Of a stretch of 64,000 nt of DNA, positions 5,098 to 9,941 are shown piece by piece. The position numbers and the translations under genes were made by a program. Positions within the stretch are counted from its first letter, which is position 1; the number at the start of each line of letters is the position of its first letter. The stretch comes from Rufibacter roseolus (GTDB taxonomy: Bacteria; Bacteroidota; Bacteroidia; Cytophagales; Hymenobacteraceae), in NCBI RefSeq assembly GCF_017916365.1, contig NZ_JAFMSU010000002.1, positions 868,001 to 932,000 on the forward strand, given 5' to 3'. The notes beneath the pieces were generated by a model. It had not been told where the DNA came from. It did not search any database and saw nothing but the letters and a program-made list of their open reading frames with translations.

Positions 5098-6165
5098 TTA
5101 CAGAGTGGCTTCTTGAGCGGAATAAGCGTTCAGTGATTCTAAAAGATTATCGTTTTCGGCAGGTGTGCCAATGGTGATGCGCAAGCAATTCGCACAACCC
5201 GGTTGAGTTGAACGGTTACGAACTACTACGCCACGCTCTAATAAGTAGACATACAGTTCATTGGCGTTCGGCACCTGTACCAGCACGAAATTGGCATCTG
5301 ACGGGTACACCTTTTCAATCAGCGGAAGTGCTGCAAAAGCTACTATCAAACGAGAGCGTTCCTGGATGATAACTTGCAGCATATCCTCCAGTTGTGCAGT
5401 TTTATCTAAAGCGGCACTTACCAGCTCCTGCGTTACTACGTTAATGTTGTAAGGAGGCTTGATTTTATTCAGATAACCGATGATTTCCGGTGAAGCGAAA
5501 GCCATTCCTAAACGAAGACCAGCCATTCCCCAAGCTTTGGAAAGCGTCTGCATCACCATCAAGTTCGGGAACTCGTTTAAACGGGTGATCCAGCTAGGCA
5601 CATTGGTGAAGTCTATGTACGCTTCATCCACTACTACCAAACCGTTGAAAGAACGGATAAGCTTTTCTACCGTGGCAGGCTCCAGAATATTTCCGGTGGG
5701 GTTATTAGGCGAGCACAGGAAAAGAATCTTAGTAAGCTCGGTTTGTTTTTCGGCTATTTTCTCAAAAACAGGCTGAAAATGCTCATCTAACGGTACACGC
5801 TGAATGCCAATGTTATGGATGTTAGCACTCACCTCGTACATGCCGTAGGTTGGAGGCAACAACAAAACCTCGTCACGGCCCGGCTCACATACCAGACGCA
5901 TCAGCAGGTCAATAGCTTCATCAGAACCGTTTCCTATGAAGATTTGCTCTGGTCTAACCCCTTTCAGCTTTGACAGTTTTTCTTTGATGATTTTCTGGTA
6001 AGGGTCTGGGTAGCGGTTGTAATCAACGCCCCCTGCCAGACTGCCCAGGTTATTTTCGTTTGCGTCCAGATAGACGCTGGCTTCGCCTTCAAACTCATCA
6101 CGCGCCGAGGAATACGGCTTCAGTGACTTCAGGTGCGGACGAATGAAATTATCTATTGAAAACAT
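5098..6165 (-). CDS. hisC: Histidinol-phosphate aminotransferase
   Basis: A 355-residue fold-type I PLP aminotransferase. LDANEN (34-39), GNGSDE (79-83), SPNNPTG (152-158), VVDEAY (178-183) and the PLP lysine in TLSKAWG (Lys210) are all present. It converts imidazole acetol phosphate to histidinol phosphate with glutamate as donor. It is preceded by a 172-base gap from hisD that contains two repeat elements, the widest such gap in the first half of the operon. Confidence 0.96.
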   Translation of the reverse strand: MFSIDNFIRPHLKSLKPYSSARDEFEGEASVYLDANENNLGSLAGGVDYNRYPDPYQKIIKEKLSKLKGVRPEQIFIGNGSDEAIDLLMRLVCEPGRDEVLLLPPTYGMYEVSANIHNIGIQRVPLDEHFQPVFEKIAEKQTELTKILFLCSPNNPTGNILEPATVEKLIRSFNGLVVVDEAYIDFTNVPSWITRLNEFPNLMVMQTLSKAWGMAGLRLGMAFASPEIIGYLNKIKPPYNINVVTQELVSAALDKTAQLEDMLQVIIQERSRLIVAFAALPLIEKVYPSDANFVLVQVPNANELYVYLLERGVVVRNRSTQPGCANCLRITIGTPAENDNLLESLNAYSAQEATL

Positions 6166-6257: not shown

Positions 6258-6350
6258 TTTGTCATCTTGGAAAGATCTTGTGGGCCAACAGCAGGTGCGA
6301 TGAATAAAAGCTCTTTCAGTACGCTCACCAAATCCTTTCAGGATGACAAA
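6258..6350. mobile_element. 93-base MITE-like element overlapping the 3' end of hisD
   Basis: Imperfect terminal inverted repeats TTTGTCATCTTGGAAAGAT... (6258-6280) and the complement of TTTGTCATCCTGAAAGGAT... (6328-6350) agree at about 18 of 22 positions. The interior is non-coding. The outer end (6338-6350) is inside hisD and encodes its last codons (TCT TTG TCA TCC TGA). Size, terminal repeats and intergenic location fit a miniature inverted-repeat element or REP-type pair. No target duplication was recognised. Confidence 0.6.
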
Positions 6351-7630
6351 GAGGTTTTTCTTAGGCGAACCGTCACTGCATTCTTGTGCGCGTGCAACCC
6401 TTCTGCCTCCGCCATAGTTTCCACCGCTGGTCCTATGCGCTCTAATCCCTCACGAGTCAGTTGCTGGAACGTAATCTTTTTCACAAAGCTATCCAGGGAA
6501 ACACCGCTGTAGTTACGGGCGTATCCATTAGTAGGTAGCGTGTGATTTGTTCCTGAAGCATAGTCACCTACAGACTCTGGACTAAAGTGGCCCATGAAGA
6601 CAGAACCAGCCTGCGTTACTCCTTCGGCTAGTGCTTCTGGTGCCTCTATTGAAAGGATTAAGTGCTCAGGTGCATACAGGTTAGAGAAGGCCAGCGCTTC
6701 CTCCAACGTATCTACCACCACCCCAATACTGTTGTTCAACGCTTGTTCAGCTACCGTTTGCCTAGGCAGTTTCGCTACCTGGTCTGCTACGGCAGCCTGT
6801 ACGTTTTTAAGCTGATTTTCAGAATTCGTAACAAAAACAACCTGTGAATCTGGGCCGTGTTCTGCCTGTGAAAGTAAGTCAGCCGCAACAAAGTCTGGAT
6901 CAGCAGAGTCATCGGCAATCACCAATACTTCAGAAGGACCTGCCGGCATATCAATGGCTACTCCCATTTGGGTCACCATTTGCTTAGCTGCGGTTACATA
7001 CTGGTTACCCGGTCCGAAAATTTTATCTACAGCCGGTACCGTTTCCGTCCCGAATGCCATAGCGGCAATGGCCTGCGCTCCACCTGCTTTCAGGATGCGT
7101 TTAATGCCAAGTCTGTTGGCGGTATAGAGAATAGTGGCGTTGATAGAACCGTCTGCGCTGGGCGGAGTAGAAAGAATGATTTCGCGGCAACCGGCAATCT
7201 GGGCGGGAATACCCAGCATGAGCAGCGTAGAGAACAAAGGTGCAGAACCACCCGGTATGTACAAACCAACCTTCTGAATTCCCACTGACTTTCTCCAACA
7301 AGTAACCCCTGCCATGGTTTCTACTTGTTGAACCGGTTCACGCTGGGCTTCATGAAAACGCTGTATATTGCTGTAAGCTAAATCTATAGATTCCTTTAAC
7401 TCTTCAGATACTTGCGGAATGGCAGCGGCAACTTCTTCCTCGGTTACCCAAACGCTTTGCAGCGTGGCCTTATCAAATTTGGCCGCTAACTCAATCAGAG
7501 CTGCATCTCCGCGTTGCTGAACCTGGTCAAAGGTCTGCTGCACGCCTGCTCGCAACTGGTCCAGCTTTTGAACCGGACGCTGAGTAAGAGCTGCCCATTC
7601 CTCTTGTTTAGGATATAGATAGGTTTTCAT
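6338..7630 (-). CDS. hisD: Histidinol dehydrogenase
   Basis: A 430-residue enzyme performing the two final NAD-dependent oxidations of histidinol to histidine, with a catalytic zinc. Family motifs are VGLYIPGGSAPLFST (about 138-152), GPGNQYVTAAK, SQAEHGPDSQVV, APEHLIL, and YSGVSLDSFVKKITFQ near 380. The final residues (about SLSS) are encoded by the terminal inverted repeat of a MITE-like element, so the original stop may have been replaced. It starts two bases after the hisG stop. Confidence 0.97.
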   Translation of the reverse strand: MKTYLYPKQEEWAALTQRPVQKLDQLRAGVQQTFDQVQQRGDAALIELAAKFDKATLQSVWVTEEEVAAAIPQVSEELKESIDLAYSNIQRFHEAQREPVQQVETMAGVTCWRKSVGIQKVGLYIPGGSAPLFSTLLMLGIPAQIAGCREIILSTPPSADGSINATILYTANRLGIKRILKAGGAQAIAAMAFGTETVPAVDKIFGPGNQYVTAAKQMVTQMGVAIDMPAGPSEVLVIADDSADPDFVAADLLSQAEHGPDSQVVFVTNSENQLKNVQAAVADQVAKLPRQTVAEQALNNSIGVVVDTLEEALAFSNLYAPEHLILSIEAPEALAEGVTQAGSVFMGHFSPESVGDYASGTNHTLPTNGYARNYSGVSLDSFVKKITFQQLTREGLERIGPAVETMAEAEGLHAHKNAVTVRLRKTSLSS

Positions 7631-7632
7631 GC

Positions 7633-8484
7633 TTACCCAATCATCTTTTCAATTGGAACCACCAAAATACCCTCCGCCCCTGCTTCTTTCAGTTTCTGGA
7701 TGATATCCCAGAAATCATCTTCGTTCACCACAGAATGCAGCGAACTCCAGCCTTCTTCGGCTAACGGAATAATGGTGGGCGACTTGATACCTGGCAACAG
7801 CGGCTTGATCTGCGGAATGGCCGAGTTAGGCGCGTTCAACACCACGTACTTAGACTTCTGTGCTTTCTGCACCGCCTCCATCCTAAACAATAACTGCTGT
7901 AATAGACGGTTTTTTTCCTGGTCCAGGTTTTGGTTAGAGATGAGCACCGCTTCAGATTTGAAGACCGTTTCCACCTCGCGCAGACCGTTGCTGATCAAAG
8001 TAGAGCCAGAAGATACAATGTCACATACTGCATCTGCCAGCCCAATGCTGGGGGCAATCTCCACCGAGCCGCTGATGGTATGAATATCGGCTTGTACGCC
8101 TTTAGAGGTTAAAAATTCCTGTAACAGGTTGGGGTAAGAAGTAGCAATGTTCTTTCCCTGTAAAGAGGTGACATCGGTGTAAGTATCTCCTTTAGACACC
8201 GCCAAAGACAAGCGGCATTTACTGAAGCCCAGGTTCTTGACAGATAATTCCTGCAAACCTTCCTCTACCAGAACGTTCTGGCCCACAATGCCAATATCAG
8301 CCACACCGTCGGCTACGTAGCCGGGAATATCATCATCGCGCAGGAACAAAATTTCAAGCGGGAAATTAGTGGCTTCGGTCTTGAGTTTGGAAGAAGTACT
8401 GATAAAGGAGATGCCGCATTCACGGATCAGTTTCAAAGAGTCCTCTGAAAGGCGCCCGGATTTCTGGATGGCTAGCCGAATCAT
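7633..8484 (-). CDS. hisG: ATP phosphoribosyltransferase, long form
   Basis: A 283-residue long-form HisG that condenses ATP and PRPP in the first committed step of the pathway. The N-terminal catalytic part opens IRLAIQKSGRLSEDSL. The phosphate-binding loop is IVSSGSTLISNGL (about 175-187). The C-terminal 75 residues are the ACT-like regulatory domain through which histidine inhibits the long form, so the pathway probably has feedback control as well as the leader upstream. It is the first structural gene, 131 bases after the leader stop. Confidence 0.97.
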   Translation of the reverse strand: MIRLAIQKSGRLSEDSLKLIRECGISFISTSSKLKTEATNFPLEILFLRDDDIPGYVADGVADIGIVGQNVLVEEGLQELSVKNLGFSKCRLSLAVSKGDTYTDVTSLQGKNIATSYPNLLQEFLTSKGVQADIHTISGSVEIAPSIGLADAVCDIVSSGSTLISNGLREVETVFKSEAVLISNQNLDQEKNRLLQQLLFRMEAVQKAQKSKYVVLNAPNSAIPQIKPLLPGIKSPTIIPLAEEGWSSLHSVVNEDDFWDIIQKLKEAGAEGILVVPIEKMIG

Positions 8485-8572
8485 AAATTATGTAAGTGCT
8501 TTTGAAAGCGTAGAAGAAGAAACAAAGATAGTAGCTGATTCGCTGATCTCTGAGAAAAGCGACGGCTTAAAT

Positions 8573-8585
8573 GGGGCCCTGCCCC
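8573..8585 (-). promoter_or_regulatory. GC-rich hairpin in the his leader, possible attenuator element
   Basis: Read on the minus strand, GGGGC-AGG-GCCCC forms a five-pair GC hairpin followed by ATTTAAG, which is only weakly U-rich. Its 3' arm (GCCCCAT) could pair with ATGGGGT inside the leader ORF (8647-8653), which would exclude the hairpin. That is the logic of attenuation, but stems are short and a classical U-tract is missing, so the assignment is tentative. Confidence 0.3.
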
Positions 8586-8608
8586 TGAATGGACGATATG
8601 ATGATATA

Positions 8609-8626
8609 ATTCCTCCTAAGAGGAAT
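8609..8626 (-). promoter_or_regulatory. Hairpin spanning the his leader stop codon
   Basis: On the minus strand ATTCCTC (8626-8620) and GAGGAAT (8615-8609) pair perfectly across a four-base loop that contains the leader TAG. It begins inside the last His codon. A ribosome finishing the leader would melt it, while one stalled earlier on His codons would leave it free to form. Confidence 0.45.
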
Positions 8627-8705
8627 GATGGAAAAGATGGCAATGCACCCCATGAACCGCGGTTGCGGCTTTTGAAAGGGAAATATTTTTGTAGGTGCTG
8701 CTCAT
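8616..8705 (-). CDS. hisL: Histidine operon leader peptide (29 aa, five His codons)
   Basis: An ATG at 8705 opens a 29-codon frame ending in TAG at 8616. The last 12 residues read VHGVHCHLFHHS before the final Ser: five His codons (all CAT) out of 11 consecutive codons. It lies between a matching promoter (8715-8744) and hisG, on the same strand. This is the classic layout of a his attenuator leader, where scarce charged tRNA-His stalls the ribosome and alters downstream folding. The -7 element ends only nine bases before the ATG, so the mRNA may be nearly leaderless. The symbol follows the enterobacterial name by analogy of function, not homology. Conservation has not been tested. Confidence 0.75.
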   Translation of the reverse strand: MSSTYKNISLSKAATAVHGVHCHLFHHSS

Positions 8706-8714
8706 AATGTAGTC

Positions 8715-8744
8715 CAAAGGTAGTACGTTCTCCCTTTAATCAAA
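8715..8744 (-). promoter_or_regulatory. Bacteroidota-type promoter of the his operon
   Basis: On the minus strand TTTG (8744-8741), 18 bases, then TACCTTTG (8722-8715) match the Bacteroidota primary-sigma consensus TTTG / TAnnTTTG. It points into the his leader ORF; transcription would begin around 8706-8711. Confidence 0.75.
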
Positions 8745-8910
8745 TAGATACGTCTTCTTTTTTGACTTGTTTTCTTCAGTTAAATACGCAATATTTGTAT
8801 TTTACAATTTAAACATGAAAAAGGATAAACTAAATTGGCGATTTGGTTTGCCTTTTGCTTCTGACTAAAAGTTGCAGCAGTTCTGTTTTAGTGTTCAACC
8901 CGTAATTACT

Positions 8911-9783: not shown

Positions 9784-9817
9784 TTTTTAGGCTCTTTTTT
9801 TTAAATTGACTTAAATA

Positions 9818-9851
9818 CAGCGAGGCCGCCCATTAATTGGCGGCCTCGCTG
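9818..9851. terminator. Long hairpin between convergent genes
   Basis: Arms CAGCGAGGCCGCC (9818-9830) and its perfect complement (9839-9851) surround an eight-base loop. It lies between the 3' ends of the DUF2911 gene (plus) and the lipoprotein gene (minus). T-runs adjoin it only loosely, so termination in either direction is plausible but not certain. Confidence 0.6.
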
Positions 9852-9941
9852 CATATACAGTGAATATTGCCTTCGTGTTGAAGACAACGACGAATCCAGT
9901 CTAGTGATGCTTCTTCATATATGTTTTTGAGGGCCCTTGAT

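Follow-up and report, generated by a model that had tools for sequence, protein, structure and literature searches.

A putative histidine-sensing leader with an apparently worn terminator upstream of hisG in Rufibacter roseolus

The hisG, hisD and hisC genes of Rufibacter roseolus are preceded by a 5′ leader that, judging from the comparative evidence, is likely to sense histidine through coupling of translation to transcription and to end in weak, probably factor-assisted termination. The analyses were carried out on a stretch of 64,000 nucleotides of contig NZ_JAFMSU010000002.1 (hereafter the window); all coordinates are window positions, and the leader and the three genes lie on the minus strand. 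Comparison with related genomes demonstrated a putative sensor ORF, its adjacency to the promoter, a set of conserved hairpins and a kinship to the classical his attenuator. By this comparison the leader is real and largely what an earlier reading of the single sequence (the original prediction) had supposed, with a terminator that is apparently worn down.

Organization of the leader and conservation of its histidine codons

The predicted promoter consists of a TTTG box at 8744-8741 (minus strand), presumably a -33 element of the Bacteroidota type, and a -7 box, TACCTTTG, at 8722-8715 (minus strand), which follows after a spacer of 18 nt and is invariant in alignment A1. Ribosomes of Bacteroidota largely ignore Shine-Dalgarno signals, and the leader ORF is probably nearly leaderless, since its ATG (8705-8703) is separated from the -7 box by just 9 nt. 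The promoter proposed from the single sequence is retained in the genus: TAnnTTTG was found 9-10 nt upstream of the leader ATG in 16/16 Rufibacter loci, and TTG or TTTG occurred 15-25 nt upstream of the -7 box in 15 of the 16, while in Pontibacter (group g3) TAnnTTTG stood 8-10 nt upstream of the ATG in 19/31 loci. The ORF itself (8705-8616, minus strand) has 29 codons, MSSTYKNISLSKAATAVHGVHCHLFHHSS, and ends with a TAG at 8618-8616. As had been noted originally, its last 12 codons hold five His codons, all of them CAT, and this cluster (8654-8625, minus strand) presumably represents the control codons, as suggested by sequence, conservation and shuffled controls.

The leader stop codon lies in the loop of a hairpin, ATTCCTC-TTAG-GAGGAAT (8626-8609, minus strand), recognized from sequence and conservation, and a second, GC hairpin, GGGGC-AGG-GCCCC (8585-8573, minus strand), stands 30 nt downstream of the stop codon and has counterparts in Pontibacter and Algoriphagus. 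Both hairpins are present as predicted, and re-reading of the sequence returned the same promoter, ORF and hairpin coordinates. Between them, alignments A1 and A2 revealed the element CATATCG (8600-8594, minus strand), which is kept in Rufibacter and altered in Pontibacter and Litoribacter; the idea that CATATNG is a universal protein site was rejected, as most Algoriphagus have another sequence there. The 88 nt from the end of the second hairpin to hisG open with AUUUAAGCC and include a third hairpin (AGC/GCT and TCGCT/AGCGA plus inner pairs; 8567-8533, minus strand), which was positioned by the pattern of the relatives and is present in most of the Rufibacter congeners compared. After this third hairpin comes a stretch rich in U and C that contains no U-tract, and the hairpin is possibly a degenerate terminator; the minimum-energy fold of its region gives pairs other than those of the 8567-8533 stem. 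At 8530-8523 (minus strand), still between leader and hisG, there is a TAnnTTTG-type site, TATCTTTG. The 251-nt leader folds better than its shuffles (z -3.1; 1/200 as good). Downstream, hisG (7633-8484, minus strand; ATP phosphoribosyltransferase, TIGR00070), hisD (6338-7630, minus strand; TIGR00069) and hisC (5098-6165, minus strand; TIGR01141) all scored above the curated cut-offs.

Conservation was analyzed in 16 Rufibacter genomes and in a family set of 120 genomes including those 16; hisG was found in 117 of the 120, and the HisG nearest to that of the window genome belongs to genome G002 (99%). Genomes G016, G021 (group g2) and G071 (group g6) had no hisG match, and these are perhaps histidine auxotrophs. 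A scan of the 520 nt upstream of hisG at 90 family loci, the window's own locus being L001, revealed a short ORF with at least three His in its last 16 residues at all 90, so that the His-rich ORF which the original prediction expected in relatives was indeed found. At least four His in 16 residues occurred in 90/90 family loci, 48/60 loci from other families of the phylum and 28/750 dinucleotide shuffles, and at least five in 86/90, 35/60 and 3/750, respectively, in agreement with the initial view that a five-His cluster would very unlikely arise by chance. A density of at least four is common for other residues too (Ala 68/90, Leu 61/90, Ser 56/90), but only His reaches 90/90. The operon's own amino acid is enriched among the leader codons, which is characteristic of ribosome-mediated attenuators. 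Outside the preserved His cluster, the leader sequences vary, as in VHGVHCHHFHHSS, AAHHHFHHSS, HAGHHHHHSSPGEE and QHHHHHL.

The scan of the phylum covered 296 genomes, 252 of them with hisG, and 60 loci outside the family, all with a fairly close HisG. The looser threshold of at least three His was passed by 54 of these 60 loci, among which L108 is unconvincing and L093 and L099 are weak; at the other six (L095, L096, L098, L101, L104 and L149) it found no His-rich leader ORF. Lineages outside the branch of the window, described below, retain just the His codons, as in MFINQLHHHHFHNCSQAMC and MKPVTHIHHHHSLPKR. The His-codon leader proposed for this his operon is conserved well beyond Rufibacter.

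Hairpins and terminators in the branch and in other families

A pattern made of HHSS and the stop-codon hairpin was run over 84,980 genomes, among which records very near the window genome may be missing. It yielded 84 stretches, 80 of which were read as loci, and in 72 of the 80 the hisG start was located 118-147 nt from the pattern start. The titles of these 72 were Pontibacter, Rufibacter, Sabulibacter, Algoriphagus, Litoribacter, Aquiflexum and Agaribacillus, in addition to Bacteroidetes, Cytophagales, Cyclobacteriaceae and Spirosoma MAGs. The remaining eight comprised one Pontibacter locus broken by a contig end and seven others, under non-Bacteroidota titles, in which no hisG was found. 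Invariance of the hairpin among the pattern matches is by construction. By this predicted structure, the window belongs to a branch composed of Rufibacter, Pontibacter, Algoriphagus and allies. Among the 16 Rufibacter loci, at most one of the seven pairs of the stop-codon hairpin is missing per locus and 99.1% of cells are paired, with no pair changed on both sides. A search of the window's own genome for this hairpin gave an exact match at the his site only and 15 inexact matches vs 14 for the reversed control; a pattern for the His-codon run gave no match in this genome, its spacing not fitting the leader.

Conservation of pairing also revealed a helix between the ORF start (GCACC, 8698-8694, minus strand) and the first His codons (GGTGC, 8649-8645, minus strand), with all five pairs present in this register in 13/16 Rufibacter loci and one pair changed on both sides. 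The pairing of these two segments was equaled by 0/2000 permutations in Pontibacter and by 175/2000 within Rufibacter. In the second hairpin every cell is paired in the 16 Rufibacter loci, and the sequence differs by genus: GGGGC/GCCCC in Rufibacter, GGGU/ACCC and variants in Pontibacter, and GGUG..GCUGA/UCGGC..CACC in Algoriphagus. Its energy was -8.4 for native arms, -7.8 for swaps within a genus and -6.6 for swaps between genera. In the covariation check suggested with the original prediction, the three Rufibacter helices stay paired (97.4% of cells; covariation score reached by 9/500 shuffles), with one pair changed on both sides. The three Algoriphagus helices gave 99.3% paired cells, also with one pair changed on both sides, and 2/500 shuffles scored as high.

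Compared with between-genus swaps, pairing between the stop-hairpin region and the second hairpin was better in Rufibacter (-8.2 vs -5.6) and Algoriphagus (-7.3 vs -5.6), but worse in Pontibacter (-5.2 vs -6.5). Folds with a ribosome masked in showed no consistent shift of the second hairpin (mean pairing 0.67, 0.62 and 0.69), and that of the window kept a pairing of at least 0.91 under masking; in the Pontibacter loci L019, L020, L021, L023, L025 and L028, the second hairpin was lost when the first stop-hairpin arm was hidden. The leader paired with the third-hairpin region no better than when permuted (4816/5000 and 1689/5000 as good). The switch that had been envisaged, with ATGGGGT pairing to the 3′ arm of the GC hairpin, was abandoned, as this pairing is not conserved in Rufibacter: ATGGGG:CCCCAT is complete at 2/16 loci, the GGGG:CCCC core is broken in L009 and L015, and no Pontibacter counterpart was seen by eye.

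Terminators were searched for with a strict test (loop of at most 15 nt, one mismatch allowed, U-tract) and a lenient one (two mismatches, at least 6 T of 8 within 6 nt). Because of its loop and mismatch limits, the strict test misses long-loop or interrupted stems, such as the long-loop U-tailed terminator that L051 and L052 (group g4) carry by eye. On the minus strand of 8485-8744 the strict scan found no terminator, with no U-tract downstream of the GC hairpin (AUUUAAGCC), and the lenient test for a U-rich tail was also negative at the window locus. The missing U-tract remarked on at the outset is real, and an intrinsic U-tract terminator before the first gene, a feature of attenuators, is absent from the window. 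Strict matches were obtained in 1/16 Rufibacter loci (L013; 0.5 expected), 5/31 Pontibacter loci (0.3 expected), 4/28 loci of group g6 (0.7), 0/8 of g5 (0.3) and 0/7 of g4 (0.0). The lenient test gave 25/31 in Pontibacter (1.6 expected), 4/16 in Rufibacter (1.4), 1/7 in g4 (0.2), 4/8 in g5 (1.6), 10/28 in g6 (2.4) and 44/54 in other families (1.5); a few of the 25 Pontibacter matches fall on a different hairpin (L029, L038). The third hairpin of Pontibacter has the form CUUUGCC...GGCAAGG, with variants, followed by an imperfect U-rich tail, and the region downstream of the second hairpin folds below its shuffles (z ≤ -1) in 11/16 Rufibacter and 26/31 Pontibacter loci. Pontibacter appears to retain an imperfect terminator-like hairpin, and Rufibacter the hairpin but hardly its tail. 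An earlier notion that the whole branch is terminator-less was rejected on account of the Pontibacter tail, and the claim was narrowed to Rufibacter. Behind other genes of the window, 10/21 hairpins have at least 4 T in the next 8 bases and 11/21 do not. A palindrome with a 15-pair stem (11 G-C) lies between two convergent genes at about 9816-9860 of the window; on each strand, the next 8 bases contain 2-3 T.

The layout in the other families is, by its predicted structures, that of classical attenuation with terminator and antiterminator. A U-tailed hairpin between leader and hisG was detected by the strict test in 42/54 non-family loci, vs 0.6 expected. At these 42 loci the 5′ arm of the terminator pairs with a leader strand located 3′ of the His codons, which often spans Cys-Ser-Gln-Ala codons; the genomes whose leaders contain CSQA probably belong to Flavobacteriaceae. 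The mean energy of this pairing was -13.2 kcal/mol vs -8.5 for swapped partners; the native pairing beat the median swap in 41/42 loci, and 0/5000 permutations, which ignore kinship, were as good. Four of the 12 non-family leaders without a U-tailed terminator (L091, L092, L094 and L097) end in HHSS, resembling the leaders of the window's branch. Very His-rich leaders with a GTG or ATG start were observed at L150, L143 and L147, also from other families (e.g., VNWKNTHTTHHHSGAHHPHHWHHCA), and the strict test detected no U-tailed terminator downstream of these leaders, perhaps owing to an independent loss.

Proposed mechanism and alternative explanations

The window system appears to descend from the classical his attenuator of most other sampled families. 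In the mechanism that we favor, translation of the leader peptide would sense charged tRNA-His. With ample histidine, the ribosome would reach the stop codon and leave, and transcription would end ahead of hisG, within the third hairpin or downstream of it; as the window retains no U-tract, such a stop would probably be weak and aided by Rho or another factor. With scarce histidine, the ribosome would stall at the His codons, the RNA would refold and the polymerase would continue. A leader that is not translated would be silenced by the ORF-start helix. The most economical remaining step would be a weak stop downstream of the third hairpin, with or without Rho. Against this reading counts a possible second promoter behind the leader, which could bypass it: TAnnTTTG occurs between leader and hisG in 12/16 Rufibacter loci (0.7 expected), 3/31 Pontibacter loci (1.6 expected) and 0/25 Algoriphagus loci (0.7 expected). 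TATCTTTG is possibly such a promoter or else what remains of the U-rich tail behind the third hairpin, and no -33 box was seen by eye upstream of it. The thin covariation in Rufibacter, with its one pair changed on both sides, counts against the reading as well, as do the ribosome-masked folds, in which the second hairpin shows no consistent shift, and the pairing of the leader with the third-hairpin region, which permuted partners equal.

More tentatively, the Cytophagales branch may record a stepwise wear of the his attenuator, from a complete terminator with its U-tail in most of the other families through an imperfect tail in Pontibacter to essentially none in Rufibacter, with the leader peptide and the stop-codon hairpin kept and the Rufibacter leader acting via Rho or some other factor. 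A serious possibility, though not the one we lean toward, is a purely intrinsic attenuator whose terminator has degenerated: a competing upstream pairing would be the antiterminator, and transcription would stop without a factor at the third hairpin (8567-8533) or the GC hairpin (8585-8573). It draws on the imperfect U-rich tails of 25/31 Pontibacter third hairpins (1.6 expected), on the frequency of tail-poor hairpins behind other window genes (11/21 without at least 4 T in the next 8) and on the pairing of stop hairpin and second hairpin, which in Rufibacter and Algoriphagus is more favorable than swaps between genera. In Pontibacter, however, the swaps pair better, and a factor-free stop fits poorly with a U-tract that is absent from the window by both tests and present at 4/16 Rufibacter loci (1.4 expected), or with an ATGGGG:CCCCAT pairing complete at just two of the 16 Rufibacter loci.

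The position of the ribosome might instead alter RNA stability or hisG translation rather than termination, and a structured leader with no standard terminator would suit such post-transcriptional action; the 88 nt between second hairpin and hisG and the terminators of the relatives make it unlikely. It is very improbable that the ORF codes for a small His-rich protein with a function of its own, for instance metal binding, and lies before hisG by chance. The clustering of His and the presence of Cys in Rufibacter leaders would fit a protein of this kind, but the N-terminal half is free to vary, the terminal SS is set by the hairpin, other lineages retain only the His codons, and the pattern search, which was not selected for hisG, still ends at hisG in 72/80 loci.

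Other leaders and comparison with known systems

Attenuator-like leaders were also observed before other genes of the genus. Two ORFs in tandem that contain neighboring Trp codons stand upstream of trpE at 15/15 loci read in Rufibacter, exemplified by MNKTQFSHKAWWHTRQD and MEKVMFSEMIWWWHNREIREQQVIA; those of the own genome (L269) are at -346 and -189, and the 14 congeners are L255-L268. A simple pattern detected T-rich GCCTT..TTTT tails behind both ORFs in 11/15 loci and behind one in 4/15, and the arrangement probably represents tandem trp attenuators. In front of ilvD, an Ile/Val/Leu-rich leader (MRLQSVISIIVIIPLPQGG) was found at about -210, in the same place in 6/14 loci, with a U-tailed hairpin by eye at L251 and L253. 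Given these trpE and ilvD leaders, better-tailed attenuators probably exist in the window's genome.

The textbook account of leader-peptide attenuation was built on Proteobacteria. The present comparison suggests that much of a second large phylum has such a design before its his genes, with start codons directly downstream of the promoter, and that one branch let the terminator decay yet kept the sensor. This would provide a natural series in which to ask what step of attenuation a bacterium can do without, and a case in Bacteroidota where the coupling of translation to transcription could be tested.

In the enterobacterial hisL attenuator, a short ORF whose His codons are clustered precedes hisG, with hairpins behind these control codons. 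Like hisL (RF00514), the window has a short His-codon ORF before hisG that is followed by hairpins; unlike hisL, its His codons are spread (HGVHCHLFHH), its stop codon lies inside a hairpin, its promoter box is 9 nt from the start codon, and there is no U-tailed terminator. The Rfam family RF00514 was not matched: at the gathering score the window yielded only a tRNA elsewhere, and at E ≤ 10 the region 8440-8760 gave just two unrelated sub-threshold matches on the plus strand and no His leader. The his leaders form a group of RNA elements with no Rfam match. In the Salmonella mgtA and corA leaders, translation of a leader ORF decides on Rho-dependent termination with no intrinsic terminator; they sense other signals than the window leader, for which the Rho step is inferred. 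If Rho- or factor-based leader-peptide attenuation does operate here, it would be undescribed for amino-acid operons in the literature searched. Novelty at the level of the phylum is not claimed, because the comparative attenuation study of Lopatovskaya et al. from 2010 may include Bacteroidetes.

Firmicutes his operons have been assigned attenuators with a His-rich leader peptide by comparative genomics in a paper that also names Proteobacteria and whose main text has no word starting with Bacteroid (PMC9413887). Those attenuators, as that text describes them, belong to another phylum and have terminator and antiterminator hairpins, the shared feature being the His-rich leader peptide. Of two further papers, one mentions leader-like sORFs of Bacteroides thetaiotaomicron (PMC7366714) and one treats leader genes in general terms (PMC4833913). 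The original prediction was not aware of any case described from these bacteria. That stands for the tail-less variant of the window, of which the literature searched contained no description, but PMC9723704 reports strong clues that amino-acid operons of Flavobacterium psychrophilum are preceded by leader-peptide attenuators. There, hisG is listed among the structured 5′ elements conserved in Flavobacteriaceae, such elements having no Rfam match (PMC9723704). This element concerns the same gene in the same phylum as the window leader. In the class-mates of Rufibacter that were sampled, probably including Flavobacteriaceae, most leaders have a U-tailed terminator downstream, with its antiterminator, and the window, which has neither in that form, shares with them the His-codon leader before hisG.
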